Of a stretch of DNA of 64,000 nucleotides, positions 2,009-55,129 are shown piece after piece. Numbering within the stretch: the first letter of the stretch is position 1; every line of letters starts with the position of its first letter. The stretch is from Spartobacteria bacterium LR76 (GTDB lineage Bacteria; Verrucomicrobiota; Verrucomicrobiia; Chthoniobacterales; Terrimicrobiaceae). The stretch spans positions 310,001 through 374,000 of the forward strand of contig QAYZ01000014.1 in assembly GCA_003054655.1 (NCBI GenBank). The letters are read 5' to 3'. A program made the translations under genes and the position numbers. The notes under the pieces are model-generated. The model had not been told where the DNA came from. It did not search any database and saw nothing but the letters and a program-made list of their open reading frames with translations.

Positions 2009-2902
2009 ATGACTTTCGGATCGCAGATGATCCTCGATGATAATATTACGAAATCTCCTCCCGTGAATAATGATATGTTTTGCGCCTTGCGCGCTCCAGA
2101 GTCCCGACTCACTGTTTGGGGAAATCTGCCCGGCAGTAATCGCTTTGCCGCATCTGATGGGGCGATCCCTTCACGCCATCGCTCTGCGCTGGTGGGAGGC
2201 TGCTTGATCTTCCTCGCAATAACCGCAGCCTCCTGCGGGGAGTTGAGACCGGTCATTTCCGACCGGGACTTCGCCGGTTTTCCCAAGGCAACCCTCGGGG
2301 GATTTGACTGGGAGGTGAAGGCCTCGGGGGCCGCGAAGGCCGAGGTCGTGGCGGAGGCGCCCGCTGGCGGGCCGGATAAAAACAGCCTGCATCTGCTGGA
2401 CCCCGACCTCGATGCCGAGAGCTTCCGGCCTCTGGTGGCTGCGGCGCTTCTCAGCTCGCCCGCTTCCGATCCGTCGGTAAAGGCCGTGGTCATTTCCTTC
2501 GACTTCCGCATGGCAAATACCGGGACGAATTCCAACCTGCTTTTCCGCGTCTACGACGATGCCGGGAAAAATACGGAATACGTGGGCGTCATCCAGTTTT
2601 TCAACAACTGGAATGGAGAGGGCAGGGGAGTGCTCGTCGGCAACAAGCCGGGTGCGGAACTCGCCGCGCTCAAGTTCGACCAATGGTATCACGTCGAGGT
2701 CACTCTGCCGCCGCCGGGCACCGAGGGAACGCAATCTTTCCTCGTGAAGGAACCGGGGAACGACGAGCCGGTTCTGCAATACAGCGAAAGGATGTCCGCC
2801 GTATTGGGCGACTATACCCGCCTCTCGTTTTCGTCGGGATTCGGCGATGCCCGGCAGTTGGACGCGATGATTTCCAATGTGTCCGTAGCCACCCAGCACT
2901 AG
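2009..2902 (+). CDS. Putative secreted lipoprotein with LamG-like beta-sandwich
   Basis: No named family was recognised. The start is uncertain: with the first ATG, about 58 residues of hydrophilic sequence precede a hydrophobic segment (ALVGGCLIFLAITAASCGEL) that reads as a lipobox ending in Cys. A later start is therefore likely (for example the ATG at 2075). The mature part has the alternating pattern of a concanavalin-like sandwich: SFDFRMANTG, LLFRVYDD, YVGVIQFFNNW, FDQWYHVEVTL and a final ISNVSVA strand. Such domains bind carbohydrate or cap surface proteins. The prepilin gene 180 bp downstream is probably its functional neighbour. Confidence 0.55.
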   Translation: MTFGSQMILDDNITKSPPVNNDMFCALRAPESRLTVWGNLPGSNRFAASDGAIPSRHRSALVGGCLIFLAITAASCGELRPVISDRDFAGFPKATLGGFDWEVKASGAAKAEVVAEAPAGGPDKNSLHLLDPDLDAESFRPLVAAALLSSPASDPSVKAVVISFDFRMANTGTNSNLLFRVYDDAGKNTEYVGVIQFFNNWNGEGRGVLVGNKPGAELAALKFDQWYHVEVTLPPPGTEGTQSFLVKEPGNDEPVLQYSERMSAVLGDYTRLSFSSGFGDARQLDAMISNVSVATQH

Positions 2903-6478: not shown

Positions 6479-6664
6479 GACTTACGTGATGAATATTGTC
6501 CGAATAAAGAAGGCAAAAAGCGTTGTCGTGTTTGTAAAAAGTTTCTCCCACTGGAGGAGTGCCGGACAATCACCCACAAGGGCAAGTCCTGGCTGTATTA
6601 CGCATGGCGTGCTTGTTCGCGGCAGCTACAAAGAGAGACCTATCAGCGAAGAAAATACCTTCCG
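6479..6664 (+). pseudogene. Cys-rich reading-frame remnant
   Basis: A stretch of about 60 codons with protein-like composition in an otherwise non-coding region. It has C-x8-C-x2-C-x8-C spacing (CPNKEGKKRC, then RVCKKFLPLEEC), which resembles a zinc-ribbon or HNH-type knuckle, followed by a basic segment (RQLQRETYQRRK). No family was recognised, there is no credible start with a ribosome-binding site, and the frame runs without a boundary into unrelated and IS-derived sequence. It may be the wreck of a mobile-element gene. Low confidence. Confidence 0.25.
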
Positions 6665-8623: not shown

Positions 8624-8670
8624 CACTCGGCTTGTTGCGCGGGCGGAGGCGAAATGCTTTCTCCTTGCAA

Positions 8671-14936: not shown

Positions 14937-15797
14937 TCAGCGAGAGCAGCGACGGCGGCGAAGAATGACTGCGGCTCCCAGGCAGAAACCAACGACTGCG
15001 ATGCTGAGCGTGGATGGCTCGGGGACGGCAGTGAGGCTGAAGTCATCGATGCCAAGGCCCTGACCGACGCCCGTTCCGGAGAAATTATCACTCCAGCGAA
15101 TCCAGAGCGACTCACCCGCTCCGACCGAGAGTCCGGTGATCGTGGCCGAGATGGTGGTGTAGTTCAGTGCTCCCGGCCCGCCGGCCTGGCCAGCGGATTT
15201 GGCGACATAGGCACTGGAGACAAAGATGGTGTCGGAGTTGCCGTTGAGACCCTGGTTGGTCGAGTTGCTGCTATAGAGCGCGTTGAAGTCGAGGTTGTTA
15301 TTGTCCGTCCATGTCCCGGTGGAGAGGGAGGTGGCATCCTCGGAGTAGGCAAAGTCCAGAGTGTTGGCGGCGCCGGTATTCCATGCCCACTGTTCGCCGG
15401 TGTAGGTGATGGTGATGGAGGTGATGGTGAAGCCCGTGTTATTGACAAACTGGGCACCGAAGACTCCATGATAGGTGGAGTTGCTGACGGAGCCGAGCGC
15501 GACGTCGGTCTGGGAAGTACGAAAGGCCATGAGAGAAGTCGGGCTGGCGGCTGTGGTGGTGGGGGTCTGTCCGTTGCCATTGGTAGCCCGGTAGTACTGA
15601 GTGGTGGCTCCCGTTGTCGATCCGTACCAGCCGGAAAGCGTGCTGTTATTCGTCCAAGGGTAAAGGCCTGCCGTATTGGTGGGAATGGAATTGAAGTTCT
15701 GCGAGTAGCTCGACGAGGTCAGTACGATCTGGGAGTGGGAAGATATCATGCCGAGGAGGAGAGTCGTGAGCGCCAAGGGGAAGGTGAATTTCTTCAT
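14937..15797 (-). CDS. PEP-CTERM surface protein sharing its domain with the GH-A glycosidase
   Basis: 286 residues from the ATG before KKFTFPLALTT; a longer frame upstream adds residues before the signal peptide and is less likely. The signal peptide ends near SSHSQ. The single mature domain carries YYRATNGNGQ, TSLMAFRTS, YTGEQWAWNTGAAN, SLSTGTW, LWIRWSDN and LGIDDFSL, the same order of blocks as the C-terminal 200 residues of the glycosidase at 8671-10692. It ends VPEPSTLSIAVVGFCLGAAVILRRRR-like, the PEP-CTERM sorting signal recognised by exosortases (none encoded here). It probably sits at the cell surface or in extracellular polymer. Operator site 3 lies 50 bp upstream. Confidence 0.85.
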   Translation of the reverse strand: MKKFTFPLALTTLLLGMISSHSQIVLTSSSYSQNFNSIPTNTAGLYPWTNNSTLSGWYGSTTGATTQYYRATNGNGQTPTTTAASPTSLMAFRTSQTDVALGSVSNSTYHGVFGAQFVNNTGFTITSITITYTGEQWAWNTGAANTLDFAYSEDATSLSTGTWTDNNNLDFNALYSSNSTNQGLNGNSDTIFVSSAYVAKSAGQAGGPGALNYTTISATITGLSVGAGESLWIRWSDNFSGTGVGQGLGIDDFSLTAVPEPSTLSIAVVGFCLGAAVILRRRRCSR

Positions 15798-15847
15798 AGG
15801 TTCAGGCAGTTGTCGCCATTTCTGCGCGCCGCGCAATGGGTTCAGGA

Positions 15848-40654: not shown

Positions 40655-41755
40655 CTAGGTGCAGCGATCGTAGGCGGAAAGGGAAACCGTGCCACGAAGG
40701 GGCATTCGGTTTAGGAAACGGCGAAGATTCTCGGAGGCGAACTCGCCGTAAATGTGCGTCATGTCTGCAGTTGGGGCTCCGATGTGAGGAGAGAGGACTG
40801 CATTTGGGTAGGTCCAAAAGGAATGCTCAGGAGTGAGCGGCTCCGTTGCCACGACATCCAGAGCTGCTCGGATCCGGCCTGATTGGAGTTCCCGCTGGAG
40901 TGCCTCTTCATTCACAAGATGACCGCGAGCGATGTTCACGAAAACCGCCCCATCGGGAAGTCGGGAAAGGAGGTTTTCGTCCACGCATTGGAAGGTATTC
41001 GGAGTCAATGCCTCGCATTCGAAGAGGACCTCGCTTTTGGAGAACAGCGAGGAAAGAGAATCGCACGGATTTACCCTGGCCTGTTCCATGACTTCCGTCG
41101 GAACTCCATGGGAGTAGGCGAACACCTGAACGTCGAACGGGCGGAGGAGTCGGACGAGGCTTTGTGCAATTTGGCCGAAACCGTGTAAACCGACCCGGCG
41201 TCCGAAGAGCGTTTGCGTCTGCAGGGTTTCCACCATGTCCCAAAATGGCGTGTGGCTGAACTCCTCGGTTTGGGATCGCCAGGCACCCTGGTTTCTCAAA
41301 GCCGACAGCGCGAGGAGAAGGGCTTGCTCGGCAACTTGTCCCGCCGCGAGGTTTCCCCAGTTGGTGACGATCCCGCCACGTTCAAAGAACGATCTCGGAA
41401 CCAAACCCTTCGGGCTGCCAGTGACGTGGCAGATATACTTCAGCGGCGACTCCGGGTCTGCTGCGATATCATCCGGGACCCGCGGAGTCGACCAGCAGGA
41501 CAGAATTGCAGTCGGTTGATAATCCCTGAGAACGGCTTGCCATTCCTCTGCCTTGAGGCAGCAGGCCTCGACACTTCGCGTTTCAGGAAAGATGGAGTTG
41601 AGGAGACTGGCGTCCGGAAAGAACTTTCGCATTTCATACCGATTGAGCGTCACCAGGAGTCGGCTTGTCGTGGAAAGCACACAGTCCGATTTCTCAGTTT
41701 CAACGGCGGCGATTTTCTGTTCCAAAATATCGGGGACGGTGTTCAAAAGTTCCAT
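40655..41755 (-). CDS. D-isomer-specific 2-hydroxyacid dehydrogenase family protein
   Basis: 366 residues from the ATG before ELLNTVPDI; the frame is open upstream but overlaps the regulatory motif and neighbouring gene. The NAD-binding Rossmann motif is VGLHGFGQIAQSLVRLL; ECEALTPNTFQCVD and FVNIARGHLVNEEAL follow, with the active-site Arg (NIARG) and His (SPHIGAPT). The family reduces 2-keto acids or oxidises 2-hydroxy acids. The N-terminal part is atypical. A copy of the locus 2 motif lies 67 bp upstream, so it probably belongs to that regulon; the substrate may be a sugar-acid catabolite. Confidence 0.85.
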   Translation of the reverse strand: MELLNTVPDILEQKIAAVETEKSDCVLSTTSRLLVTLNRYEMRKFFPDASLLNSIFPETRSVEACCLKAEEWQAVLRDYQPTAILSCWSTPRVPDDIAADPESPLKYICHVTGSPKGLVPRSFFERGGIVTNWGNLAAGQVAEQALLLALSALRNQGAWRSQTEEFSHTPFWDMVETLQTQTLFGRRVGLHGFGQIAQSLVRLLRPFDVQVFAYSHGVPTEVMEQARVNPCDSLSSLFSKSEVLFECEALTPNTFQCVDENLLSRLPDGAVFVNIARGHLVNEEALQRELQSGRIRAALDVVATEPLTPEHSFWTYPNAVLSPHIGAPTADMTHIYGEFASENLRRFLNRMPLRGTVSLSAYDRCT

Positions 41756-41822
41756 GATTCTTGAGTGCCGGATTACGAAAATGATCCCCCAGTTGGTGGA
41801 TTCACGACAACCGCACCTGTAC

Positions 41823-41836
41823 TCGTACAATAGAGC
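41823..41836 (-). promoter_or_regulatory. Locus 2 motif, copy 1
   Basis: GCTCTATTGTACGA on the minus strand, between the esterase stop and the dehydrogenase start (67 bp before it). The least conserved copy in the right half. Confidence 0.6.
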
Positions 41837-41868
41837 CGTAAAACCCACCGATCCCAGTGCGCCAAAAT

Positions 41869-43206
41869 CTATTCCGACGGCTTGGCGATTTCTTTGGTCC
41901 AGGAAATGAGCGGGATGCTTTTCCCTTCCAGAATCGCGCGGCGCCATGCCGCCGCCCGGGTTTGAAATGGGGCCTGCGAGTTCTTTGTTCCTCCATGGTC
42001 GGAGGCTGGCATGATGACCACCTCTTTCGGGCATTGAAGCTGATTCACGAGTGTAAAGACACCAGTCGGTGGCGAGGTGGTGTCGATGAGACCGAGGCCG
42101 ATGAGCGCAGGGCATTTAATGCGGTGCGCGAAGTTTACCGCATCAAAATAGCGGGATGTTTCGAGCACTGCCTCGGGCTCACCTGATCCGGCATTGGCGA
42201 TCCAGAACGGCCAGCCGGGCTGCCGCTTCGCTTCGCGGCCCGTATGGTCGCAACCTGCCGGAACAAGAGCCGTCACGCCCGTGACTGCGGGATGCAGTGC
42301 AGCAGCAGCCAGGGCTTGCAGAGCGCCCTGGCTTGCGCCAGATGCCAAAAGATTTTGGCCATCCCAGTCCGGCCGCCGGGTTAGGTATTCGATCGCCTGA
42401 TAGCAGCCTAGAAACATCCGAAGAAAGTAGCTCTTTTCGCGATTATCGTTTCCGATACTAGCGTAGTTATTGAGCGACGTTGATGCCTCGTGATCGTAGA
42501 ACGCCTGGGATTCATCAATGGGGAGATCGTGAGCCATGATGTTCAGTGCCAGCCATCCCTCAGCGGCGCGATCCACTACCCACTCCTTCTTCAGCGGATA
42601 AACTCCCGCCCACTGAAAGATGACGAGTGCAGGCAGTTTATTGGTTCCCGTTGGACGTGCGATCTGACCCTGCACCTGTGTCCCATCGTATCCTCTCAAG
42701 GTGATTTTCCAGCACACGACTCCAGTGCGTCCGCTCTCCACCTTTTCGAGCATGGCATCCGGCGGAATGGACGCCATCCGGCTCACCATGGAATCCCAGA
42801 AGGAATCGAAGTCGTCGGGCAATGGGACAGAGGGAGCCAGTTTCCAAGGCTCAATAGCCGCACCCGAGGCGGCGCGAACCACCGGTTTCCCGGGCTGTGA
42901 GGCGGTAGTTTCCAGCAAGAGCGTGGAGGCGGTGTCTGTCTGAACCTCGATGATACCGCGGCCGTCACTCAGATTTACCTGATCCCGAAGAACGATATCC
43001 GCGCCGTTTCGCTTTATCACGTAGGCGATCTTGGTCGGCGTCGCCGCGTTTCCACCGGTGTACGAAACATTCCAAACGATCTTGTCTCCTGTTTGCCAGA
43101 CGCCCGAGGAGTGAACCGGAGAAATGGACAGCGCGGGAGCGGGATCGGCAGCGAGCCCATGAGCAAAGGGCACCAGGCACGCCCATCCGATATGCAGCAG
43201 TTTCAT
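41869..43206 (-). CDS. Secreted acetyl xylan esterase-like (CE7) hydrolase
   Basis: 445 residues from the ATG before KLLHIGWACLVPFAHGLAADP, a signal peptide; it overlaps the deacetylase stop (ATGA). An immunoglobulin-like N-terminal domain is followed by an alpha/beta hydrolase of the acetyl xylan esterase/cephalosporin deacetylase type: nucleophile Ser in LLASGASQGALQALA, Asp in LGLIDTTSPP and His in MPASDHGG. It probably removes acetyl groups from the target glycan. It shares an operon with the CE4 deacetylase. Confidence 0.85.
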   Translation of the reverse strand: MKLLHIGWACLVPFAHGLAADPAPALSISPVHSSGVWQTGDKIVWNVSYTGGNAATPTKIAYVIKRNGADIVLRDQVNLSDGRGIIEVQTDTASTLLLETTASQPGKPVVRAASGAAIEPWKLAPSVPLPDDFDSFWDSMVSRMASIPPDAMLEKVESGRTGVVCWKITLRGYDGTQVQGQIARPTGTNKLPALVIFQWAGVYPLKKEWVVDRAAEGWLALNIMAHDLPIDESQAFYDHEASTSLNNYASIGNDNREKSYFLRMFLGCYQAIEYLTRRPDWDGQNLLASGASQGALQALAAAALHPAVTGVTALVPAGCDHTGREAKRQPGWPFWIANAGSGEPEAVLETSRYFDAVNFAHRIKCPALIGLGLIDTTSPPTGVFTLVNQLQCPKEVVIMPASDHGGTKNSQAPFQTRAAAWRRAILEGKSIPLISWTKEIAKPSE

Positions 43207-44048
43207 TGATAAAGGGAGAACGAGGTGAGGTTCCGGGAGTTCATCAGGTTCCCAGGGGCGAGCTTCACCGCCACGCCATCGACCTCGAACCAGATGGTGC
43301 GGGCGCTGAGATTCAGGATATGAATCCCGTCGAGGGACATCTTCACCTGCTTGAGAGCCTCCATGTAGTCTTTGATTTCGATATTCGTTGCGAACCAAAG
43401 GTCTTGCTGATGGATCCTTGCTCTCTTCGCAAAGTCTTCCACGATTTCCCAGTTATCCTCGCGGTGGAACTCGAAGCTGTGACCCCAGAAATAAAACAAC
43501 GCCATTTCCACCCAGGGGTCGCTGGCGACAAAAGCGTCAAATCGCTCGCAAAGCCGGTCCTTGTGATGGCAGGTCGGGTGCCAGTCCAGCCAATCGTCCG
43601 GCATGGCGTAGTCGTTCCGGCTTTCTGCGACGACTCTGGCGTACTCGATTCCGTAAGCCTCGAGCCTTGTCGAAAGCTCTGTGCTTTTCGTTCCGAAGGG
43701 ATAGGACATCCCACGAATCGGATAGCCCACCAGAGATTCTAGATTTCGACGATCGGCCATGATTTCGTAGGACAGCTGGATCGGCGACAGGGTAGTCAAA
43801 TGAGGATGCGTCATGCTGTGGATGGCCACTTCATGTCCGGTAAACAGAGTGCCTATCTCCTCCTCCGTAAGGACATCATGCCTTCCCAATAGTCCAGAGT
43901 TGAGGTGGAAGGTTCCCTTCAACCCGGCCTCATTGAAGATGGAGACGAGACGACGGTCATGAACCGAGCCGTCGTCGTAGCTGGCGGTGACAGCCTTTTG
44001 GGTTCCTCCCGGAAATCGATTCAGCCGAACGACGGAGTAGTCAGGCAT
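43203..44048 (-). CDS. Polysaccharide deacetylase (NodB/CE4)-like protein
   Basis: 281 residues. The NodB motifs are present: TASYDDGSVHD (motif 1, Asp pair), VAIHSMTHPHL (motif 2, metal-binding His pair) and MSYPFGTKS (motif 3). There is no obvious signal peptide, so it may act in the cytoplasm, or the start may be misplaced. A C-terminal beta extension (GIHILNLSARTIWFEVDGVAVKL) is unusual for the family. Starts 40 bp after the CBM protein. Confidence 0.85.
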   Translation of the reverse strand: MPDYSVVRLNRFPGGTQKAVTASYDDGSVHDRRLVSIFNEAGLKGTFHLNSGLLGRHDVLTEEEIGTLFTGHEVAIHSMTHPHLTTLSPIQLSYEIMADRRNLESLVGYPIRGMSYPFGTKSTELSTRLEAYGIEYARVVAESRNDYAMPDDWLDWHPTCHHKDRLCERFDAFVASDPWVEMALFYFWGHSFEFHREDNWEIVEDFAKRARIHQQDLWFATNIEIKDYMEALKQVKMSLDGIHILNLSARTIWFEVDGVAVKLAPGNLMNSRNLTSFSLYQ

Positions 44049-44087
44049 GGTTGATCTCGAGATCCAGATTGCCGCAGACTGCTGCGA

Positions 44088-44633
44088 TCAGGGTTTTGTC
44101 ACCTTCGAGATGGTAAACTCGTCGAAATCCACATTGCAGCGATTCCTCGACCACGAGTGTATGAAGATCGCGGCGTAGGCGGCATTGGCCGGCGCAGGGG
44201 CCTCGACTTTATATTCCGTCCAATCTCCGACTTCCATCGGGAGGATTTGCTTGGCATCGCCGACAATGGAGAACCCTTCGTTGTAGAACTGCAGCATGAC
44301 ACCGATGCCGCTCTTTTCATTGGAGCGGGCGTAAAAAGTCAGGCGGTAGACGCTGCCAGGCTCGACCGGCACCTTGTTGCTCAGCACGCTCGATCCCATG
44401 GGGGCTTGTTCGCCATCTGCCACGATGACACTCAGGCCCAGCTTGCCTTTGTACGCGCTCTCGGTGGTAACGCGGCTCAACTCGGATTCCGCGTCTTCCT
44501 TTCCCCACACCCAACCTTGACGGTCGGCTTCAAACCCGGGGTTCTCCAGATTGAGAACTTCATCTGCGTGGCAGAAAGAAGAGAACGATGCCATGGCGGC
44601 AACAGAGAGGATGAGGGAAACTCGATGTGACAT
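44088..44633 (-). CDS. Secreted CBM4/9-like carbohydrate-binding protein
   Basis: 181 residues: a signal peptide ending at SFCHA, then one beta-sandwich with the CBM4/9 pattern (LNLENPGFEADRQGWVWG at the start, VYRLTFYARSNEKSGIGVMLQF in the middle, VDFDEFTISKV at the end). With no catalytic domain it would be a free binding protein or a surface cap. It opens the minus-strand operon with the two deacetylases, 47 bp after a locus 2 motif. Confidence 0.8.
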   Translation of the reverse strand: MSHRVSLILSVAAMASFSSFCHADEVLNLENPGFEADRQGWVWGKEDAESELSRVTTESAYKGKLGLSVIVADGEQAPMGSSVLSNKVPVEPGSVYRLTFYARSNEKSGIGVMLQFYNEGFSIVGDAKQILPMEVGDWTEYKVEAPAPANAAYAAIFIHSWSRNRCNVDFDEFTISKVTKP

Positions 44634-44680
44634 GCTAACACTGTGAGCAGGGCCGGACTATGGGTCAAATTTCCGACTCC

Positions 44681-44694
44681 TCAAACAATAGAGT
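44681..44694 (-). promoter_or_regulatory. Locus 2 motif, copy 2
   Basis: ACTCTATTGTTTGA on the minus strand, 47 bp before the CBM protein start, within the 95-bp gap after the GH16 gene. Confidence 0.7.
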
Positions 44695-44728
44695 TACCGC
44701 AGGCACGCTGCATTCTCCGGGAGTCAGG

Positions 44729-46663
44729 CTAAGGCTGCCTTGTCCCGCTCCAGACACGCACCCAATCGATCTGGGTCAGTTGGTTGTTTACCTGTGAACC
44801 GGGAGCGTTGGCCGGATCCCATCCGCCAAGCTGCAAGGAGAGCAGGAGGTAACACGGGACGCTGCAGGCTCGTGAGTTTGCAAACGTATAGGTTTTCGTT
44901 CCATCCACATAAAACTCCATCAATCCATTCTCCCAGTAGATCCCGTAAGTGTGAAAGCCGTCCGCAGTCGGAGTGATATTTTGAAGACCCGTGCCGACGG
45001 ATTGGTGATCTACGCCGTACCCGTCCCAATGAAGTGTCTGATAAGCCGCGTTCTGTCCCTGAAATGACAGCGACTCCCAAATATCCACTTCCATGCCCCC
45101 GTTGTAGGTCGAGGAGGTATCTCCCCAGTCGTCGCGGACAACCAATTCGGGCGAAGAACCAAAATTCGTATTGGCGGCAGTTCCGTTTTGCAGGCAGGAA
45201 TCGGCGACCGGATAATAGGTGACCCCGTTTACGACCAACTGAGGCCGCATCGAGGCGGATGACCATTCCTTGCTGTAGAACTTTATCTGTCTTACCCGGC
45301 GAAAAGTATCAGCAAGAAGCAAAGAGATCTGGCTATTACCCGCGAGCTTCTCGGTGACAAAGTCCTTCACATCGAAGGTCAGTTGTTGGCCTGAGCTATA
45401 GGTTTGATTGTAGGCCTGTGCAATCCAGCCGGGATCCTGCACTGGCTGGTTGTTCCAGGTCACCCCGCTCTCCGTCCATGAGTCATCCCGAACTTTCAAA
45501 AGGAGCAGGTTGTTGCCTGATCCCTGATCTGCGGAAGATACCGTGAGCTTGATATAGGCGGAGTTGACCTGGGCGATATTTGCTCCACTCAGGTCAAACT
45601 TCAGCAAGGATCGGTAGTATCCATTGAGGTTGCCATAAACCCCTCGGTCTGGCATCAGCCAAAATGCGGGCCACAGCCCAGCAATGAAGGGAAACCGAGC
45701 GCGGACTTCAAAGTAGCCATACTGCTGCCGGAAAAGCCCGAAGGTCGAAATCTCGGCTCCGGTATAAGCATAGTTGATGCCGCCGAAGGTATTGTTTCGC
45801 ACTTGAGAACGCAGATTGAGCACCCCCAATCCCTGCGAAATATTCCCTGGATCGTTTCCGCCCTGGCCGTTGATCCACAGACTTGCCTGGCCGACCTTCC
45901 ATTTTAATCCATCGAGATAGGTGTTTACCGATTTGAACTCGTCCGAGAACGTCAGGAGCCAGTTGCCATTGAGTGGCGGTAAGGGAGTGACTGAGAGGGA
46001 GTCAATATATACCCCAAGATTGGTTCCAGATCCGTAACCTGCCGACAGGTCAAACTTGCGGATCGACCAATTCGTCGCGGTGTCGGCGGACGTCAGCACG
46101 GTTGTGCCGTTGAGGAGCACGGCGGCGCTGTTGGTGGCTTCGTTGAACCGAACCTCCAGGTTTGCCCAAGAAGCGAGTGTAGTGAGGAGGCTGGCATTCG
46201 TGTAGGTTGCCAGGGTTGTCGTTCCAGCCGTCCCTCCCGTCAGGGAGATGGTGCTGGTTCCATCACAGACCAGCCCGAAGACTTTGGCATTCGAGGCATT
46301 ATAAAAATTCAAGTACCATGCCGTGGCGCTGGATGTAGCCCTACGTACGGCAACTTTCAATACCCCGGAAGTGCAGTTTTCCCCAAGGTCGCAGGTTACG
46401 ACCGGACGGTTGGCTGTGTTGTTATCCTGAATCAGGAGCGATTGTGTGCCAGCGTTCGCTATTGCAGTCGTGACAGTGACGGCTGAGGATCCCGTTCCAG
46501 CTCCATTGTTCAGCGCCACAGACCATGTGGCGGAACTGCCGAGGTTTCCCGGAGAGTATCCTTCGCTGGCCTCGAAGCCGCACGAAAGGATCTGGGCGGA
46601 ACATGGTAGAGTCAGGGTGATGGCCGCAATGAGGCCCATGCGCAGGGATGCCAGGGGGGACAT
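44729..46663 (-). CDS. Secreted GH16 enzyme with LamG-like head and inserted DNRLRE-type domain
   Basis: 644 residues. A signal peptide (to PCSA) is followed by a LamG-like domain (about 24-228) identical in layout to the PEP-CTERM protein at 54329. The GH16 sandwich starts at WLLTFSDEF (about 234) and runs to GLWPAFWLMPDRG (about 333). It is then broken by about 185 residues and resumes at GGMEVDIWES (about 520) with the catalytic Glu-x-Asp-x-x-Glu, ending QIDWVRVW. The insert is a CBM96/DNRLRE-like domain in permuted order: its later half (YYRSLLKFDLSG, DDSWTESGVTWNNQPV) comes first and its opening strand (ADSCLQNGTAANTNFGSSPELVVRD) last. GH16 enzymes cleave beta-glucans or galactans; which one is unknown. 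Confidence 0.87.
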   Translation of the reverse strand: MSPLASLRMGLIAAITLTLPCSAQILSCGFEASEGYSPGNLGSSATWSVALNNGAGTGSSAVTVTTAIANAGTQSLLIQDNNTANRPVVTCDLGENCTSGVLKVAVRRATSSATAWYLNFYNASNAKVFGLVCDGTSTISLTGGTAGTTTLATYTNASLLTTLASWANLEVRFNEATNSAAVLLNGTTVLTSADTATNWSIRKFDLSAGYGSGTNLGVYIDSLSVTPLPPLNGNWLLTFSDEFKSVNTYLDGLKWKVGQASLWINGQGGNDPGNISQGLGVLNLRSQVRNNTFGGINYAYTGAEISTFGLFRQQYGYFEVRARFPFIAGLWPAFWLMPDRGVYGNLNGYYRSLLKFDLSGANIAQVNSAYIKLTVSSADQGSGNNLLLLKVRDDSWTESGVTWNNQPVQDPGWIAQAYNQTYSSGQQLTFDVKDFVTEKLAGNSQISLLLADTFRRVRQIKFYSKEWSSASMRPQLVVNGVTYYPVADSCLQNGTAANTNFGSSPELVVRDDWGDTSSTYNGGMEVDIWESLSFQGQNAAYQTLHWDGYGVDHQSVGTGLQNITPTADGFHTYGIYWENGLMEFYVDGTKTYTFANSRACSVPCYLLLSLQLGGWDPANAPGSQVNNQLTQIDWVRVWSGTRQP

Positions 46664-46722
46664 GCTTCCTCCCTAGCGGAAAGACCTTCAGGTGAGGAAG
46701 CGTTCGATGTCTTCTAAAACAC

Positions 46723-46736
46723 TCCCACAATAGAGT
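46723..46736 (-). promoter_or_regulatory. Locus 2 motif, copy 3
   Basis: ACTCTATTGTGGGA on the minus strand, 59 bp before the GH16 start. Copies 3 and 4 share the divergent GH16/heparinase promoter region. Confidence 0.7.
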
Positions 46737-46803
46737 GTTCATATCGATAGGCCATCCAATTTGCAGACCCTTAGTTTCCGAAGCAAATGGCGCCCAGAAC
46801 GAT

Positions 46804-46817
46804 ACTCTATTGTTAGA
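46804..46817 (+). promoter_or_regulatory. Locus 2 motif, copy 4
   Basis: ACTCTATTGTTAGA, 46 bp before the heparinase-like gene, identical over 14 bp to copy 6. Its arms TCTA/TAGA are complementary. Confidence 0.75.
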
Positions 46818-46863
46818 TTCTTCGCTCGATTGCCCCTGCCGAGGGGTGTATTGATGGTATGGA

Positions 46864-48807
46864 ATGCGTTCGCCCTTGTATTGCCTTCATGCCGTAGGAA
46901 TTGCTGCCGCGGCGGTCTGTGGTGTTTTTTGCGAGAAGGCCGTCGGTATTGAGCCGCTTTCGTCGGAGAGAGTCGCCGAGATCGCGAAGGTGCTTCCTGC
47001 CAGGCCTGTCGGAGTCGGAGTGCCGATAGAAGATCGCGCTGCGTGGGACAAGTTGACCGGGCGACCGCATTACGCTGAGGAGATCCTGCGATCGGCTAAT
47101 CGCTTGATCGAACAAAAATCTCCCGAAACTTCGGAAGCCGACTATTTCGAGTTTTCCAGGAACGGAAATCGCTCCAACTATGAGGGCAAGGCCGATTCGC
47201 GGCGGCATCGTCTCTCGATTTTCGTGCAGGCCGAGGGACTGGAAAACCAGGGGCGGTTTTTGCCGTACATCAACGAGGAGCTGGCCAAGATTCTCGCCGA
47301 ACCGACATGGGTTCTTCCCTCCCACGACAAAGGGCTGGAGAACTTCAAGGGAACCAAGACCGAGATTGATTTATGGACGGCAATGACGGTGTGGAATCTC
47401 GCCACTGCCGACACCATACTCGGAGACCGTCTTGGGTCTGAAACGCGGGCGAAGATCCGGACAGAGGCGCAGAGACGGGTCTTCGTACCGATGCTGGCTC
47501 AAATAAGGGGGGAGGCGCCTCCTGCGTGGTGGATTGACAGCAGCTTTAACTGGAACGCCGTCGTCCATGCCGGCGTCACCGGAGCGGCGCTCGCCCTGGT
47601 GGAGAGTCCGGAGGAACGCGCGGAGTTTGTCGTCGAGGCGGAGCGGGACATACGCCCCTATCTCGGAGGATTCAAAGCTGACGGGTACGCGGAAGAGGGC
47701 CTCAGCTATTGGAACTACGGCTTCGGGCATTACGTACTCCTCGCGGAGACTTTGCTCCAGGCGACCAACGGCAGGATCAACCTGTATGCCGAAGATCGAG
47801 CCCGACGGGTAGCTCAGTTTCCGAAAGCTCTCGAGGTCCTTCCCGGAACCTATCCGGCGTTTGGAGATTGTGTTGTCTCCATGGAGCCATCTGCCTGGGC
47901 GCTTCGTATCCTGAACGCCCGCTATCAGTTTGGCTGGAAGGAGGGGGCTGCGTTTCCCATGCTTGATTCGATGTATGCGCCGCTCCTTTATGCGGCGGCG
48001 ATCAGCACGGCCTTCTCCCCCGGGGAGGCGGCGGTTTCTTCGCCTGGGCAGGAAGATTTCAGCAATTTGTTAACCACGTGGTTTCCTGAGTCACAGGTCT
48101 TGGTCGCTCGCCCCGCAGACGCCGCGATGGGATTGGGTCTGGCCTGCAAAGGAGGGAACAACGGCGAAAGCCACGGGCATCTGGATCAGGGATCTTTTGC
48201 TGTTTTCAACGGGGATCAGGGAATGATCATTGATCCTGGGGCAGCGGTCTATAGTGCGGCGACTTTCGACGAGCGGCGTTACGAGAACAAAATCCTGAAC
48301 TCATACGGCCATCCGGTTCCGGTCGTGGCCGGTCAATTGCAGAAGGCGGGAACCAAACATGGTTCCAGGATTTTCGAAAGAACCTCTACGGAAGACCGGG
48401 ACTCCCTTGTGCTGGATATATCCGGGGCTTACGCCGTCCCTGCCGTAAAGCAGCTCCTGCGACGATTTGACTATGATCGCACAGGAACGACCAGCGTCAC
48501 TATTACGGATACTTTCGAGTTTTCTTCCCCGGAGACATTTTCCACGGCACTGGTGACATTCGGCACGGTGCGAGAGATCAAGCCGGGGGTCCTGACGATA
48601 ACCAAGGGAGGCCGCAGCGTTCAGGTGGAGGTGAGAGCCGGGGGGGCAGCATTTGCCTGGAAGGAAGAGATCATCTCGGAGAAATTGAAAAGCGGGCCAG
48701 AACAAGTCCGCCGCATCGAGATCGCCTTGAAGGAAAAGACCACCGCCGGCCAGATCGTGATGCGGATCACCCCGGCAGTATCCGCCAATACGGCATTTCA
48801 GCCGTAA
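46864..48807 (+). CDS. Heparinase II/III-like polysaccharide lyase
   Basis: 647 residues with an N-terminal signal sequence (LHAVGIAAAAVCGVF). An alpha/alpha toroid (about 60-370) includes WWIDSSFNWNAVVHAGVTGAAL and YAEEGLSYWNYGFGHYVLL with likely catalytic Asn, His and Tyr residues. The C-terminal beta-sandwich starts with the family hallmark GESHGHLDQGSFAVFNGDQGMIIDPG and continues RYENKILNSYGHPVPVV. The family cleaves uronate-containing polysaccharides by beta-elimination. Substrate cannot be read, but with two deacetylases and a GH16 in the same regulon an acetylated uronate polymer is plausible. Confidence 0.88.
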   Translation: MRSPLYCLHAVGIAAAAVCGVFCEKAVGIEPLSSERVAEIAKVLPARPVGVGVPIEDRAAWDKLTGRPHYAEEILRSANRLIEQKSPETSEADYFEFSRNGNRSNYEGKADSRRHRLSIFVQAEGLENQGRFLPYINEELAKILAEPTWVLPSHDKGLENFKGTKTEIDLWTAMTVWNLATADTILGDRLGSETRAKIRTEAQRRVFVPMLAQIRGEAPPAWWIDSSFNWNAVVHAGVTGAALALVESPEERAEFVVEAERDIRPYLGGFKADGYAEEGLSYWNYGFGHYVLLAETLLQATNGRINLYAEDRARRVAQFPKALEVLPGTYPAFGDCVVSMEPSAWALRILNARYQFGWKEGAAFPMLDSMYAPLLYAAAISTAFSPGEAAVSSPGQEDFSNLLTTWFPESQVLVARPADAAMGLGLACKGGNNGESHGHLDQGSFAVFNGDQGMIIDPGAAVYSAATFDERRYENKILNSYGHPVPVVAGQLQKAGTKHGSRIFERTSTEDRDSLVLDISGAYAVPAVKQLLRRFDYDRTGTTSVTITDTFEFSSPETFSTALVTFGTVREIKPGVLTITKGGRSVQVEVRAGGAAFAWKEEIISEKLKSGPEQVRRIEIALKEKTTAGQIVMRITPAVSANTAFQP

Positions 48808-48829
48808 ATCCGACGTTGAAATCTGATCC

Positions 48830-49528
48830 TCAATGTCCGGTCTTGAGGAGTTCCCGCCGCTTTTCGAGTTTGAGATATCTGTCGAGAGTTGCTTTTACCG
48901 GGTCTGGTAATACAAGCGCAGAGCCCGGTTCCGCACCAAACTGGTAGACGTAGGTTGCACTTCCATCCCGATAAGCGACGGGCAGGGACGTGCTGACATT
49001 GACCCATGCCTCCTGCCCGGCGTTGAGGACATAGTGGTAACACACGACTCCATCGAACGCCTCCACTTTGTCGAAATACGGCAATGCGATCCACGACACC
49101 CCGGGAAATCCGGCAAATGAAAGAGGGGCGAACCTTGCCGCATCCGTGATCGATGAATCCTCTCCGAGGACCGTTCCGGTACTTTTCGTGGGACAAATCG
49201 AGACTTCGCTGCCGGCGTCCACCAGATAGGCTCTCTCTGTGTACCAGATGTCCTGCGTGCGTCCGTTGCGGAATGTCACCCGGTCATGCCCGATACCATC
49301 CGTCCATATACTCTCGACGCGTTCGATTTCATTGGCTTCGGGGGCGGCGTTGGTCTGATTGGCTTCGTTCGCCGCCTTGCGCGCTATGATGGTCCATTGA
49401 ATCTTCCCCGAGGCCTTCCTGATCAATGGTGGCGAAGGGAGCGGAGTAGTTGATGCCGCGTGCAGAGTGGCGGAGATCAATGCGCACGCCGTCATGATGA
49501 GCAGTGGAAATCGAATGATGTTTCTCAT
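48830..49528 (-). CDS. Secreted protein of unknown function coupled to a Verru_Chthon A-like gene
   Basis: 232 residues with a signal peptide ending at LHAAS. No family recognised. The mature part is beta-rich, with ERVESIWTDGIGHDRVTFRNG, DIWYTERAYLV, VCYHYVLN and ATYVYQFGAEP. Its ATG overlaps the stop of the large upstream protein (ATGA), so the two probably function together. Only 22 bp separate its stop from the converging heparinase gene. Confidence 0.7.
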   Translation of the reverse strand: MRNIIRFPLLIMTACALISATLHAASTTPLPSPPLIRKASGKIQWTIIARKAANEANQTNAAPEANEIERVESIWTDGIGHDRVTFRNGRTQDIWYTERAYLVDAGSEVSICPTKSTGTVLGEDSSITDAARFAPLSFAGFPGVSWIALPYFDKVEAFDGVVCYHYVLNAGQEAWVNVSTSLPVAYRDGSATYVYQFGAEPGSALVLPDPVKATLDRYLKLEKRRELLKTGH

Positions 49529-52500
49529 GGGTTAACCAATTCCATCTGTCGATCGAGGACTTCGCCCGTGAAGCGATCTATCGCCACGTGCAACCAATAC
49601 CGCCTTTCGCCCTCGACGACAAATTGGTCGAGATTGGAAGCGTTCTGCGGGTATCGTCCTGTCTGAGCCACGACATCGATCAGGAGATTCCATGTGCGCG
49701 TCTGCCCCACATCGGTGAGCGCCCGCACTGCTGCCTCCCGCCGGGTTTTGATATTCTGCTCCATGGTATTTCCAAAGGATGATCCGCCGAGCCCCGAGGC
49801 GATTTTGGTAACAAGCTCATCCTTGCCGGCCAGAGGAGCACTCTGGGTGAGTGAGGTGATGTTGGAGGCCATCGCTGACGCGTTCCCCACGGTCGCTCCC
49901 CCGATGACGTCCGCCATTGTATTTTTCAGGACGGCAGCCAGTGCCAGCTTGTTCGGACTGTTTAGGCTGATGCAGCCATGCCGCACGCGATCCATGCTCT
50001 GCCCGACCGTAAACAGATCGAGCAATCCCGCATCTCCGCTCAGGTCCGTAAAGAAGTCCAGCGTGCGCCAAGGGTAGTCGCGGGCGACGTAGCCCAGCTC
50101 CCCGACACTATAGAAGGGGCGGTTGAGAATTACCGGGCGGTCCGCGCTCCGTGCATAAGGATCACCCTCCCATGAGCTCGTGGACGGCGTGGAGGTATAG
50201 AGGCCGGAATCCGCCAGACGACGGACACCATCGGGATCGGTATAGCCTACGACCTTCGTGGTCGCGCTGGCGTTGTTGCGGCTGAACTTGGCGAGAAAGT
50301 ACTGATCATAGGGAGGCGGCTGTGGAAACGTGGCCGGAACGATCTGTTTTGCCGGAGTGCCATCGGTCTGGAGAGCAGGCATCGTGTCTGCCGACCACAG
50401 CGAGGCTTTCCAGTACTGGCGCTTGGTTACGCTCTCGACCTGAGCAAGATTGAACCGCGTGGATCGAGGATCAGAGATCGCCCAGAATGGTGCCTGATCA
50501 TTTGAGATATTCGAGGCGTCGAACTTCTGTGGCGTAGCCTTGGCTCCGACTGCTCCCCCCATGCTCCCGGAATACATGGACCAGGAACCGGACATTCCGG
50601 TCGCTTCGTCATTAATGCCGACTCCATAATTGTACGGGATCCACACCCCGCCCGGGGTCAGGTATTCCAGCCAGACATTAAACAGATCCGCGACATTGTT
50701 GCTCAGGGTCAGACGGAGCGAACTCCAGGCCAGCCCTCCCGTGGATGTCTTACTCTGGGAGATGGGAAAATCGGGGAGCCGGTATCCGAGATAGTTTGCC
50801 CCGTCGGTCGTGCTGACCGCTGGCATGAGCGCCCACGCGTTTACAGCGCTGCCGGGAGCTGAGGTCAAGTCGCTCCCAACCGGCACATTGGGTTCCGAGA
50901 AGCCATTCACGCCGCGTCCTGCCGTGGAGGATAACTCGATCGTGCCGTTCATGCTGCCATGCTCTCCGGCAAAGACGGAGGGCGGGCTGCCCGCGGTGAA
51001 GGAATTGCTCCCGCTGTAATAGCCATTGCTCGTTCCAAAGGAGCCTTTGATCCGCAGCCGGATTCGCGGTCGGGATGCCACGGAGCCGACGGCCTGATGC
51101 GGGTTCCAGAGCGAAACCGTCATGTACTGCTCCAGCGATGATGGCGTGGAGGTGTATCCCCAAAGGTAGCGGACGAAATTGAGGTAGGGCAGGTTCTCTA
51201 TACCGCAAGCCTGCCAGGGAGCTCCGCTTTGATCGTATTCAACGACTGCCGGGCAACTGGACGATTCATATTGCGAGATGATCGATGCCCCGATCCGGAA
51301 GACATGGAATGCGGATTTTCTCTGATGAAAAGTGGTGAACGGATCCTTCGCTCCTCCATCCTTCGCGAGGGAACCCGAGAGTATCCCGGCCTGGAGCAGC
51401 TCGAAGAAATTCGGCTCGCGGGCAGGAGTATCGGCGAGAACCTGAGCGAGTGTTTTGATCTCGCTCTGTTCCGTGGAACCTGATGGCCCGACATATTTCC
51501 AGAGATTTGCCGCCGGGTCCCATTTTAAACCGAAACACGCCTGAATATTTTCCTCCGTTCCGCCGTTCTGCGGTCCGTTCGACCCCAGCCAACGAATACG
51601 ATCAAGTGGGAAGCGAAAGTACACGAGCGGATCCCCGGCTTCCACCTCGTAGGTGAACGAAGCACCATCAACCTGATAAGTTTTAATCGTTGCGGCTTTG
51701 TCTCTGCGAATGAGCGGGATGAAAACATTAGTCGAGGTTGTCGTGCGAGCCTGTGTCCCATAGTCGATCGTACTGCCTGCAGGCGTGCGCGGGAAATAGC
51801 TTGGGGCATTTCTCTCCCGGGAAAAGACGGAGAGATTGGGCAACGCATTGGTGGACAATCCAGCCACCGACATCTTTGCCGCCTTGATCAGGTCCTGGCG
51901 GCTGAGAAATGTCGTGTCTCCAGTAGCGACCTCCTTGAAACCATTCGGAATGGCGGTGTTGGTGATATAATTGAGATAGATCGTTCCCGACGAAGCGGAT
52001 TTCGCATTGCGCCACTTCGTCAACGCCTCCGGATCGATGCCCAATACCGAGAGATCAGCTCCTGCCAGCGTTCCCTTGATGGCTTGGGCGGCGGCGACAG
52101 AAATCGACTGCGTGGGGTATCCCGCCATGCTGATGTCGAGCAACCCGCCGACATCATATACGGCATAGGCAAAACGCGCCCCGATGTAGTTGCCGTTGTC
52201 CGGAGCCGGATTATTTACGGCGTTTGCTCCGGTGAACAGAGCCCCTGCCCCATTTGTCGCACCCATGCGCGAGAGGAAAATCCAGCCCGGCACGGGTTGG
52301 TTGGTGAAATCGCCCAGATAGACCTCGGCCCATCGTTGGGCGCTCACATAACGACCGTTCATCGACGGCGTGGAGGAGAGATTGGTGGAACCTCTGAGGC
52401 CGCTGACTGCTCCCGGGCTATTGGTAAAAGACGAGTCGCCGCTGACTCGAACGAGATTTGTCATCGACGATGACACTCCGATCCGCTGCGGGCGAATGTT

Positions 52501-52848
52501 TGCGCTGGTGATGTTTGTGTAGAGCGGTTTACCGGGAAATGTCAGGTCGGCAGCGCCACCCGCATCCATTTCCTTTTGCAAGTCCGCCACCACCAACGTG
52601 AGTGCGCCGAGTGCGGTTTCATCTGCGCGCAGCGAACTGCTGTAGCTCGCTGAGGCTGTTTGTTCCAGCCTCATGGCTGTAACGAAAGCTACGAGAATCA
52701 GACTGACGATGACTATAAAACTCAGTACGACGACGAGCGCGATACCCCTCTCCCGGAACAGTCTCCTCGGAGAGCGTCGCCGGCGAGAACCCGCCCTGTT
52801 TTCGAGAGCGTTCCTCCTTTCAGCCTCGCGATCGATGCTCTTGTTCAT
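49525..52848 (-). CDS. Verru_Chthon cassette protein A-like giant prepilin-class protein
   Basis: 1107 residues. A basic N-terminus and a single hydrophobic segment (GIALVVVLSFIVIVSLILVAFV) with the sequence after it (MRLEQTASASYSSSLRADETA) resemble the pilin-like start of Verru_Chthon cassette protein A and GspK-type proteins. The large exported domain carries Tyr/Trp-rich blocks also seen in that family, for example YIGARFAYAVYDVGGLLDISMAGYP, and ends with LHVAIDRFTGEVLDRQMELV. I assign the class, not a function: these genes usually sit with small pilins and may build a surface or secretion structure. A locus 2 motif lies 195 bp upstream, so it appears to be in that regulon. Confidence 0.75.
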   Translation of the reverse strand: MNKSIDREAERRNALENRAGSRRRRSPRRLFRERGIALVVVLSFIVIVSLILVAFVTAMRLEQTASASYSSSLRADETALGALTLVVADLQKEMDAGGAADLTFPGKPLYTNITSANIRPQRIGVSSSMTNLVRVSGDSSFTNSPGAVSGLRGSTNLSSTPSMNGRYVSAQRWAEVYLGDFTNQPVPGWIFLSRMGATNGAGALFTGANAVNNPAPDNGNYIGARFAYAVYDVGGLLDISMAGYPTQSISVAAAQAIKGTLAGADLSVLGIDPEALTKWRNAKSASSGTIYLNYITNTAIPNGFKEVATGDTTFLSRQDLIKAAKMSVAGLSTNALPNLSVFSRERNAPSYFPRTPAGSTIDYGTQARTTTSTNVFIPLIRRDKAATIKTYQVDGASFTYEVEAGDPLVYFRFPLDRIRWLGSNGPQNGGTEENIQACFGLKWDPAANLWKYVGPSGSTEQSEIKTLAQVLADTPAREPNFFELLQAGILSGSLAKDGGAKDPFTTFHQRKSAFHVFRIGASIISQYESSSCPAVVEYDQSGAPWQACGIENLPYLNFVRYLWGYTSTPSSLEQYMTVSLWNPHQAVGSVASRPRIRLRIKGSFGTSNGYYSGSNSFTAGSPPSVFAGEHGSMNGTIELSSTAGRGVNGFSEPNVPVGSDLTSAPGSAVNAWALMPAVSTTDGANYLGYRLPDFPISQSKTSTGGLAWSSLRLTLSNNVADLFNVWLEYLTPGGVWIPYNYGVGINDEATGMSGSWSMYSGSMGGAVGAKATPQKFDASNISNDQAPFWAISDPRSTRFNLAQVESVTKRQYWKASLWSADTMPALQTDGTPAKQIVPATFPQPPPYDQYFLAKFSRNNASATTKVVGYTDPDGVRRLADSGLYTSTPSTSSWEGDPYARSADRPVILNRPFYSVGELGYVARDYPWRTLDFFTDLSGDAGLLDLFTVGQSMDRVRHGCISLNSPNKLALAAVLKNTMADVIGGATVGNASAMASNITSLTQSAPLAGKDELVTKIASGLGGSSFGNTMEQNIKTRREAAVRALTDVGQTRTWNLLIDVVAQTGRYPQNASNLDQFVVEGERRYWLHVAIDRFTGEVLDRQMELVNP

Positions 52849-53042
52849 GGAGTCCTTCTGAGCTCAGGATGCCCTGCGTAAGCCTATTCGCAGCGAGAAT
52901 GCTGCGGGGGCTGAGCGTCAGGCAATGCTTGCTGGATGGGGTACGGAAGCATGTGTGGGTGACTGGTTGGAGATCCGTTCAGACGTGGAAGAGGATGTAT
53001 TTACATTGCCGCCAAAATCTCGCGGTGCCACGTCAGGGTTAC

Positions 53043-53056
53043 TCCAACAATAGAGC
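53043..53056 (-). promoter_or_regulatory. Locus 2 motif, copy 5
   Basis: GCTCTATTGTTGGA on the minus strand, 195 bp before the Verru_Chthon A-like start, farther than the other copies. Either the 5' leader is long or the start codon is misplaced. Confidence 0.6.
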
Positions 53057-53101
53057 CTGCTCTGCATCCGTATTGAGCGGGATGCCCAACTCATATTTCG
53101 T

Positions 53102-54187
53102 CTAGGATTTAGGAGGCGAAGTCGTGTCTTTCTTACCTAATTTAGAAATTTTTGACATGGACCGAGGTAGGGATGGCCCATTGATCCAGGTGCCTTCCAC
53201 AAGAATGCGTAGGGGGATTTGCGGCACGCCTCGTTCTCCGCGATGGATCATGTCGACGAGAAAATCCACGGCGGTACGACCGATTTTTTCGTCATTCTGA
53301 TAGATGCCCGCGAAGGGGCCTCCCGGTTGGGTGAGACTCATCGAGGCGTAGCCGCATGTTTCCGCAGAGATTCCCAGCCTTTCCAGCGACTGCGGAATCT
53401 CGTCATCAAAAGCCAGGATTGCATCGGGTTGATGGACTGAGATCCATTTGGAGAAGCCTTTGAGGAATGTCTTTCGGAGGGTCTCCTTCACATCGTTGTA
53501 AACGAAAACCGGAATCTTGGCTTTCTTGCCGAGACGTTGCTCTGCCAGATAGCCAGAGGAGAGATTTTGATCCGTCCTCAGCTCATTGTCATAGGTCGTC
53601 GCGAAGCCGATGCGGCGATAACCACAGGACCGCATCGCCCGCACCGCTGTGCGTGTTGACTGGTATTGCGCATTCGTGACCAGATGCAAACGAGGTCGAG
53701 CCAGCGTGAAGCCGAAGGAAACGGCAGAGAAGGACTCCCACTCAAAATTCAGATGAGACAGGCGACGAGGCTGCGGCGGGAGGAGCACTCCGGTGATGTT
53801 ACGCGCCTGAAGAATCCGCGCCAAGCGAGCCAGGGGAAGCTCGTCGAGTCGAAATTCTTCCAGGACATAGCCGAGTTCCGCACAGCGTGCCTCGGCTCCT
53901 CTGCGGTAGCTTCGAAAACTGTCCCCATAGGCTATCGTGTCCCGTTTCGTCGCATTCAGCCACCCGAGCGTCCCCTGGTGGTGGGGGCGCTGGGCGTTCC
54001 GGCGATAAACCGTCAGCGCCGAGAGCATGGGATCGGGATGATAGCCCATCTCCTTCGCCAGATTCTGAATGCGCTCCCGAGTACTCTTGGGAAGGCAGGG
54101 ATCGTCGCGGAGCGCAAGGGATACAGTCGTGACATGAACGCCTGCGCGTTCTGCGATATGTTTCTGGAAGACTCTCTTGATGGACAT
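53102..54187 (-). CDS. LacI-family transcriptional regulator of locus 2
   Basis: 361 residues. The helix-turn-helix and hinge are complete (KHIAERAGVHVTTVSLALRD, then CLPKSTRERIQNLAKEMGYHPDPMLSALTVYR). The ligand domain ends MIHRGERGVPQIPLRILVEGTW, closely parallel to the locus 1 regulator, followed by a basic tail. The two share subfamily and gene context but differ in the recognition helix (GVHVTTVSLAL here, GLTQAAVSLAL there), in line with the two different motif sets. It is divergent from the PEP-CTERM gene, with a motif copy 75 bp before its start. Confidence 0.92.
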   Translation of the reverse strand: MSIKRVFQKHIAERAGVHVTTVSLALRDDPCLPKSTRERIQNLAKEMGYHPDPMLSALTVYRRNAQRPHHQGTLGWLNATKRDTIAYGDSFRSYRRGAEARCAELGYVLEEFRLDELPLARLARILQARNITGVLLPPQPRRLSHLNFEWESFSAVSFGFTLARPRLHLVTNAQYQSTRTAVRAMRSCGYRRIGFATTYDNELRTDQNLSSGYLAEQRLGKKAKIPVFVYNDVKETLRKTFLKGFSKWISVHQPDAILAFDDEIPQSLERLGISAETCGYASMSLTQPGGPFAGIYQNDEKIGRTAVDFLVDMIHRGERGVPQIPLRILVEGTWINGPSLPRSMSKISKLGKKDTTSPPKS

Positions 54188-54262
54188 GACTTTTAGGGGG
54201 AGTCGAGGCGTGTGGCGTCTCGATATGGGGGGATCTCAAAGCCAGAACACGAGCAGTATTTT

Positions 54263-54276
54263 ACTCTATTGTTAGA
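54263..54276 (+). promoter_or_regulatory. Locus 2 motif, copy 6
   Basis: ACTCTATTGTTAGA, 52 bp before the PEP-CTERM start and 75 bp from the divergent regulator start. Identical to copy 4. Confidence 0.75.
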
Positions 54277-54328
54277 GGCCAAATCTACTGGTCAGCGCCT
54301 CGTTGTGTCAATAGCAGGGGAGGAAATC

Positions 54329-55129
54329 ATGAAGCCCCAAACATTTCTCCCACTGATAGCTGCCGTGTCCCAAATGGCGTTCTTCGCCACTGGTGCTAAC
54401 GCTCAGGTTTTCATCGGATTCGAACCCAACGAGGTCGCCACGCCCAGTCCGGGGTATACAGTGGGAAATCTCGGCACGCAGGGTGGATGGGTTAGCACAT
54501 TGAATAATGGCTCAGGCTCGGGAACCTCTACGATCACTGTGTCAAGTGCCCAGGCCTATGCCGGCACACAATCATTGCTGATTTACGATAATAACACAGC
54601 AAACCGTCCCAGCGCATCATACACTCTGGCGAGCAATATTACGGCAGGAACGTTCAGCGATGCGATGCTTCAGCTGGCAGGTACTTCGGATGCAAATTTC
54701 TACACGAATTTCTATACTACGAGCGGAACGGCGACCTTTTCAATCTGGTACACCCCGGCAGCCAACTCGGGAACGATCACGCTCTATCGCGGAACGGGAG
54801 GCGTGAGCCTGGGAACCTATACCGCCAATCTCTCGACGACATTTGATAGCTGGGCAACGCTCGGCATTGTCTTTAGCGAAAGTACCAATACGGCGACCGT
54901 CCTTCTTAACGGCACGCAGATCATAACGTCTTCCGATACGACGACAAACTGGACGATCGGTAAAGTCGAGATGTCGGTAGGCTATAGTGGCGGAACGAAT
55001 CTCGGCTATTACTTCGACTCGGTCTCCGTGGTCCCCGAGCCCTCGTCTCTCTCCCTCGTAATCCTCGCCTGCGGCATGGGACTGCTCATAATCCGCCGCC
55101 ACCGTAAATGGCAGGTAGCGCGCGATTAA
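54329..55129 (+). CDS. PEP-CTERM surface protein sharing its domain with the GH16 enzyme
   Basis: 266 residues from the ATG behind a good GGGGAGG ribosome-binding site; the frame is open upstream across the operator, so the longer form is rejected. The signal peptide ends at TGANAQ. The LamG-like domain (YTVGNLGTQGGWVSTLNNGSG, AGTQSLLIYDNNTANRP, TATVLLNGTQIITSSDTTTNW, GYSGGTNLGYYFDSVSV) repeats, block by block, residues 24-228 of the GH16 enzyme at 44729-46663. It ends VVPEPSSLSLVILACGMGLL then RRHRK, a PEP-CTERM signal. It is probably exposed at the cell surface and may bind the glycan that the GH16 attacks. Confidence 0.87.
   Translation: MKPQTFLPLIAAVSQMAFFATGANAQVFIGFEPNEVATPSPGYTVGNLGTQGGWVSTLNNGSGSGTSTITVSSAQAYAGTQSLLIYDNNTANRPSASYTLASNITAGTFSDAMLQLAGTSDANFYTNFYTTSGTATFSIWYTPAANSGTITLYRGTGGVSLGTYTANLSTTFDSWATLGIVFSESTNTATVLLNGTQIITSSDTTTNWTIGKVEMSVGYSGGTNLGYYFDSVSVVPEPSSLSLVILACGMGLLIIRRHRKWQVARD

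Follow-up and report, generated by a model that had tools for sequence, protein, structure and literature searches.

The window analysed in this study is a 64-kb stretch of DNA (C9:310001-374000) from an assembly of 4.75 Mb in 16 contigs. Locus 2 of the window is a putative regulon block of 14.5 kb (40655-55129). The original prediction had described this locus as a regulator, a private motif, an enzyme-linked module, an anchored twin of that module and a prepilin-class protein, and all of these parts were present (Table 1). No glycosyltransferase was found within the block, and Rfam and tRNA scans of the 64-kb window were empty.

Table 1. Features of locus 2, with the twin genes of the remaining window at the end (window positions)
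Feature	Position	Strand	Remarks
D-2-hydroxyacid dehydrogenase-like protein	40655..41755	-	PF02826; start inferred from operator position
Putative operator copy GCTCTATTGTACGAGT	41821..41836	-	upstream of dehydrogenase
Acetyl xylan esterase-like protein (AXE1)	41869..43206	-	PF05448; start taken from sister-species ORF
Polysaccharide deacetylase-like protein	43203..44048	-	PF01522
Small secreted CBM4_9-like protein	44088..44633	-	borderline, 25.8 bits against cut-off 25.9
Putative operator copy ACTCTATTGTTTGAGG	44679..44694	-	upstream of CBM4_9-like gene
GH16 enzyme, 644 aa	44729..46663	-	signal peptide, module 27-229, GH16 first part 229-341, permuted CBM96 insert about 345-519, GH16 second part
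Predicted lectin-like module, twin copy 1	45977..46585	-	GH16 enzyme residues about 24-229; by sequence comparison
Putative operator copy ACTCTATTGTGGGAGT	46721..46736	-	upstream of GH16 gene
Putative operator copy ACTCTATTGTTAGATT	46804..46819	+	upstream of heparinase II/III-like gene
Heparinase II/III-like protein	46864..48807	+	PF07940
Secreted protein without family, 232 aa	48830..49528	-	operon partner of pseudopilin-class protein
Pseudopilin-class protein, 1107 aa	49525..52848	-	weak N-terminal matches to TIGR02600 Verru_Chthon_A and T2SS GspK
Putative operator copy GCTCTATTGTTGGAGT	53041..53056	-	upstream of pseudopilin operon
LacI-family regulator	53102..54187	-	divergent from PEP-CTERM gene
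Putative operator copy ACTCTATTGTTAGAGG	54263..54278	+	upstream of PEP-CTERM gene
Putative PEP-CTERM surface protein, 266 aa	54329..55129	+	entire body is the module (twin copy 2); TIGR02595 24.8 bits, cut-off 16
Soluble twin; its PEP-CTERM counterpart lies just beyond the window (C9:308043-308879)	2009..2902	+	
GH39-like enzyme (locus 1)	8632..10692	+	C-terminal module from residue about 467 matches PEP-CTERM protein 14937-15836
PEP-CTERM twin of GH39-like enzyme (locus 1)	14937..15836	-	

The body of the PEP-CTERM protein is homologous to the N-terminal module of the GH16 enzyme. BLASTP aligned the two with 47% identity over 233 aa (E 2e-52), and the identity across the module was 52% in the MAFFT alignment. 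Both reading frames were recovered, and the relation proposed between residues 24-228 of the enzyme and the protein encoded at 54329 was thus borne out. Among the motifs listed as shared, GNLG, LNNG.G, AGTQSLLI.DNNTANRP, TNW and GTNLG.Y.DS.SV were common to both proteins, but TVLLNGT and GGTNLG occurred only in the PEP-CTERM protein; the enzyme reads AAVLLNGT where TVLLNGT had been given, and YGSGTNLG where Y.GGTNLG had been given. AGTQSLLI.DNNTANRP is the best-conserved block of the twins, with 16 of 17 positions identical compared with 52% overall. The dN/dS was about 0.1 for both twins and low in all parts, indicating purifying selection and therefore that both genes have been kept.

The module has a narrow distribution. 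Within the order, 1 of 45 genera had its profile; across the class, 8 of 384 genomes did. It occurred in PEP-CTERM proteins (L142), in stand-alone secreted proteins (L143 and L004) and in fusions to enzymes or beta-helix proteins (L003, L141 and the GH16 enzyme). The module had no significant match to a Pfam family, and its profile had none among PDB sequences. The structure model of the module (pLDDT 62.5, with residues 1-65 below 50) showed a jelly roll near L-type lectins, galectins and CBM66 (Z about 12-14). This model of moderate confidence suggests a lectin-like fold, as in LamG or concanavalin A-like lectins and CBM66, although a shared fold alone does not prove carbohydrate binding; the difference from these families lies in the lack of a significant sequence match. 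A related twin pair elsewhere in the genome carries Laminin_G_3. The proposed difference in fold between the modules of locus 1 and locus 2 is conjectural: the two showed no detectable similarity in sequence comparison, the structure model having been made for the locus 2 module only.

The GH16 assignment of the enzyme was supported by PF00722, which scored 73 bits with the insert removed, and by the catalytic motif EVDIWE (ExDxxE type) at residues 525-530 in the second GH16 part. A CBM96/DNRLRE domain lies inside the catalytic domain (residues about 345-519), directly ahead of the catalytic EVDIWE strand. This insert is circularly permuted, with profile positions 40-163 followed by 3-38. A full-length CBM96 match was obtained only with the halves reordered (a single match over 3-162 of 164 positions, 105 bits), whereas the native order gave two pieces. 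The permuted insert is kept in a sister species and is under purifying selection. On plasmids, the whole GH16 enzyme had no full match, only partial ones to GH16 or CBM96. An AlphaFold model of GH16 plus CBM96, built with two sequences, reached a pLDDT of 34 and was discarded.

The putative operator ACTCTATTGTtnGAGT is present in six copies at six promoters of the block, and the same six promoters carry it in the sister species. The exact 13-base pattern occurred 5 times in the 4.75-Mb genome, all within the block, and the sixth site deviates from it; the pattern was written from these very sites, so the independent evidence is their clustering and conservation. The LacI protein is the obvious candidate for binding the operator (ACTCTATTGTtnGAGT; ACTCTATTGTTNGAGT). 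A private motif had been predicted as part of a repeated design. It was found at locus 2, but the search for a repeated operator at six other loci gave nothing clear beyond chance-like pairs and shared divergent regions.

The sister species ('Verrucomicrobia bacterium isolate SCN18_30_10_14_R3_B_61_17', JAFKMU010000035.1) carries the same block. The DNA similarity was 77-84% over 40655-55116, a span bounded by the ends of the dehydrogenase and PEP-CTERM genes, and the flanks of the block differ between the two genomes. The flanks in this genome contain a MobF-type relaxase (37879-39483), a TraD/TraG-like coupling protein (55527-56963) and a ClpP-like gene nearby. The block therefore probably moved as a unit, and a conjugative element may carry it as cargo. 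A short conserved sequence, which may code for a small Cys-rich protein, was seen at 6212-6654 of the window, L048:3985-4382 and L138:763-1008. It sits near an integrase gene (4732-5907) and, in the sister species, on either side of the block. A paralogous locus (L049, C11:566500-582000) encodes a 2-hydroxyacid dehydrogenase, a GH42 enzyme, a LacI protein, heparinase II/III, Verru_Chthon cassette proteins A and C, and a stand-alone relative of the module without PEP-CTERM tail.

The protein at 54329-55129 resembles the substrates of the PEP-CTERM/exosortase (EpsH) sorting system (Haft et al. 2006, PMC1569441) in its C-terminal PEP motif, hydrophobic segment and basic tail. Its PEP-CTERM domain was recognised by TIGR02595 (Table 1) and PF07589 (20.9 bits with neighbours, cut-off 20.7). 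As in the known system, the genome has many PEP-CTERM copies and an exosortase gene, a single one at C10:566938 (PF09721, E 1e-44). The known description covers the tag, whereas the proteins here have a secreted or enzyme-fused partner with the same body domain. We found no description of such twins in open-licence PubMed Central papers on PEP-CTERM with glycoside hydrolases, prepilins, LacI or Verrucomicrobia.

How large polysaccharides are retained at the cell in Verrucomicrobiota without SusC/SusD is the question addressed here; these bacteria have dozens of PEP-CTERM proteins. The genome had no PF07980 (SusD/RagB) match, in agreement with the earlier assumption of bacteria lacking Sus genes as far as SusD is concerned. 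Locus 2 is like the SusC/SusD polysaccharide utilization loci of Bacteroidota in that a candidate surface glycan-handling protein and glycan enzymes are apparently co-regulated in one island. The difference is that SusD is absent and the candidate surface protein is a PEP-CTERM-tagged jelly-roll twin of the enzyme's own module. A SusD-type lipoprotein identity was rejected for the PEP-CTERM protein, which has no SusD/RagB domain and was modelled as a jelly roll. The pseudopilin-class protein is comparable to the Verru_Chthon cassette proteins (TIGR02599/TIGR02600), which are pseudopilin-class proteins of Verrucomicrobiota; proteins A and C of this cassette stand beside the related module protein at L049. 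In the locus 2 protein, the match to TIGR02600 is limited to about the first 70 positions of that model, and its identification as cassette protein A was rejected (19 bits against a cut-off of 332).

We surveyed 1.65 Mb around the PEP-CTERM genes of this genome, comparing 109 PEP-CTERM bodies with all other predicted proteins. A non-PEP match within 10 kb was found for 11 of the 109 bodies; true twin pairs numbered ten, as one of the partners has a PEP-CTERM end of its own. Among the cross-class homologous pairs, 11 of 44 lay no more than 10 kb apart. The near/far enrichment per pair was 30-fold for PEP-CTERM proteins, compared with 4.8-fold for signal-peptide-like proteins and 3.3-fold for all non-PEP proteins used as controls (Fisher p 2e-5 and 3e-7 for the difference). 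The survey thus answered whether such pairs are more frequent than expected: in this genome they are. A catalytic domain was carried by 4 of the 10 twin partners, namely GH16 (locus 2), GH39 (locus 1), GH71 and alpha-1,3-glucanase, and no recognised enzyme was fused to the other 6. One cassette has both a stand-alone twin and a separate GH71, and this twin is a homologue of the module at the N-terminus of the GH71 enzyme in another cassette; judged by homology, this case is a fusion link between twin and enzyme. In the trees of two groups of duplicated cassettes, the anchored copies clustered with anchored copies and the soluble with soluble (support 0.995 and 1.000). The pairs therefore predate cassette duplication and were inherited as units, and because of these two related groups the ten pairs amount to about eight independent cases.

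Gene order gave a second handle on PEP-CTERM function. The genome contains 101 PEP-CTERM, 103 prepilin and 50 LacI sites. A prepilin start followed within 300 bp downstream of PEP-CTERM in 12 cases against an expectation of 0.2, and within 1.5 kb in 21 against 1.6, and LacI lay within 3 kb of PEP-CTERM in 20 against 6; the expectations assume random placement and ignore gene clustering, so these factors are upper bounds. The order LacI/PEP-CTERM, twin, prepilin and then a glycan enzyme or beta-helix protein was found at C11:516183 and C11:1469473. In two open frames, C13:152451-153977 (L111) and C10:458528-461326 (L087), the PEP-CTERM end appears to run into a prepilin N-terminus. PEP-CTERM protein and prepilin may thus be fused in these cases.

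The breadth of the arrangement was assessed in G493, a genome of another family, with a sample of 45 of its 65 PEP-CTERM sites and 27 more found by their ends. None of these 72 proteins had a twin, and their bodies matched no non-PEP protein, near or far. A prepilin adjoined PEP-CTERM in 1 of the 72 by a regular expression, which is an insensitive measure. In a search of 147 genomes of the order, the related pair at C11:1469473 was recovered as a pair in this species alone. The general strategy that had been proposed holds in so far as the pairs recur far above chance in this genome, several of them with regulator, prepilin and glycan enzymes, but the result in G493 makes it lineage-restricted on present evidence.

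Twin homology, the shared operator, island conservation, the recurrence of pairs and their inheritance as units form the observed basis of the interpretation. The best explanation, to which we give about an even chance, is that a single glycan is both captured at the surface and targeted by the enzyme, a SusD-like role. A LacI-type regulator acting through the operator would switch on a glycan-degradation island, and one lectin-like jelly-roll module would be made for two addresses. One copy would be fused to a secreted GH16 endo-beta-glucanase. Processing by the single exosortase would leave the other at the cell surface or in the exopolysaccharide. The glycan delivered to the catalytic domain by the enzyme's copy would also be retained at the cell by the anchored copy, and cleavage products would be released beside the cell, a role comparable to that of SusD/SusE but performed by different proteins. 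The prepilin-class protein may take part in the capture. Pili-like fibres bind dextran in Planctomycetes (PMC5394234), which makes a prepilin role in glycan capture conceivable, although these fibres say nothing about the genes here. More broadly, we speculate that in this lineage LacI, a PEP-CTERM surface lectin, a soluble or enzyme-fused twin and a cassette-specific prepilin may make up a modular cassette for Sus-independent glycan uptake, which would capture a specific substrate at the surface and exist in many versions within one genome; this extension is doubtful.

Tandem duplication is common, and the pairs could be its by-products without joint function if PEP-CTERM proteins and secreted enzymes draw on one jelly-roll pool. 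Some pairs are indeed adjacent genes, and the controls also showed a 3-5-fold near/far excess. However, PEP-CTERM pairs show an excess 6-9 times that of the controls, the pairs are old and inherited as pairs, and the locus 2 twins lie 7.5 kb apart, share one operator and are kept in the sister species. We consider this explanation unlikely. It is also improbable that the anchored module binds the module of the enzyme homotypically and so keeps an otherwise free GH16 enzyme at the surface, in the manner of a miniature cellulosome. Both proteins have the same module, and jelly-roll lectins of this kind often self-associate, but most twin pairs are only 22-49% identical and no conserved interface is known. 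The stand-alone soluble twins of other cassettes were counted for such docking, yet docking by itself leaves them unexplained.

The PEP-CTERM twin and the pseudopilin might instead organise the cell's own exopolysaccharide, with the island enzymes remodelling that polymer rather than digesting food. It was with exopolysaccharide production that PEP-CTERM proteins were first connected (PMC1569441), and a deacetylase and an acetyl esterase are encoded in the island. Substrate induction is the better match for LacI-type control through one private operator and for the hydrolase/lyase content, and the block had no glycosyltransferase; a matrix function appears distinctly improbable to us. The simplest reading is that the anchored module would capture the same glycan to which the enzyme is targeted by its own copy. 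Each PEP-CTERM protein in a twin pair gains a partner that can be tested, its predicted ligand being the glycan on which the partner enzyme acts. About ten such pairs suggest a way to keep a polysaccharide and its enzyme at the cell without Sus proteins.

Two further cassettes (C16:76433-78956 and C11:1343043-1345211) encode a small secreted protein between PEP-CTERM and prepilin that is dissimilar to the PEP-CTERM body. A soluble partner may therefore be general even without twinning.
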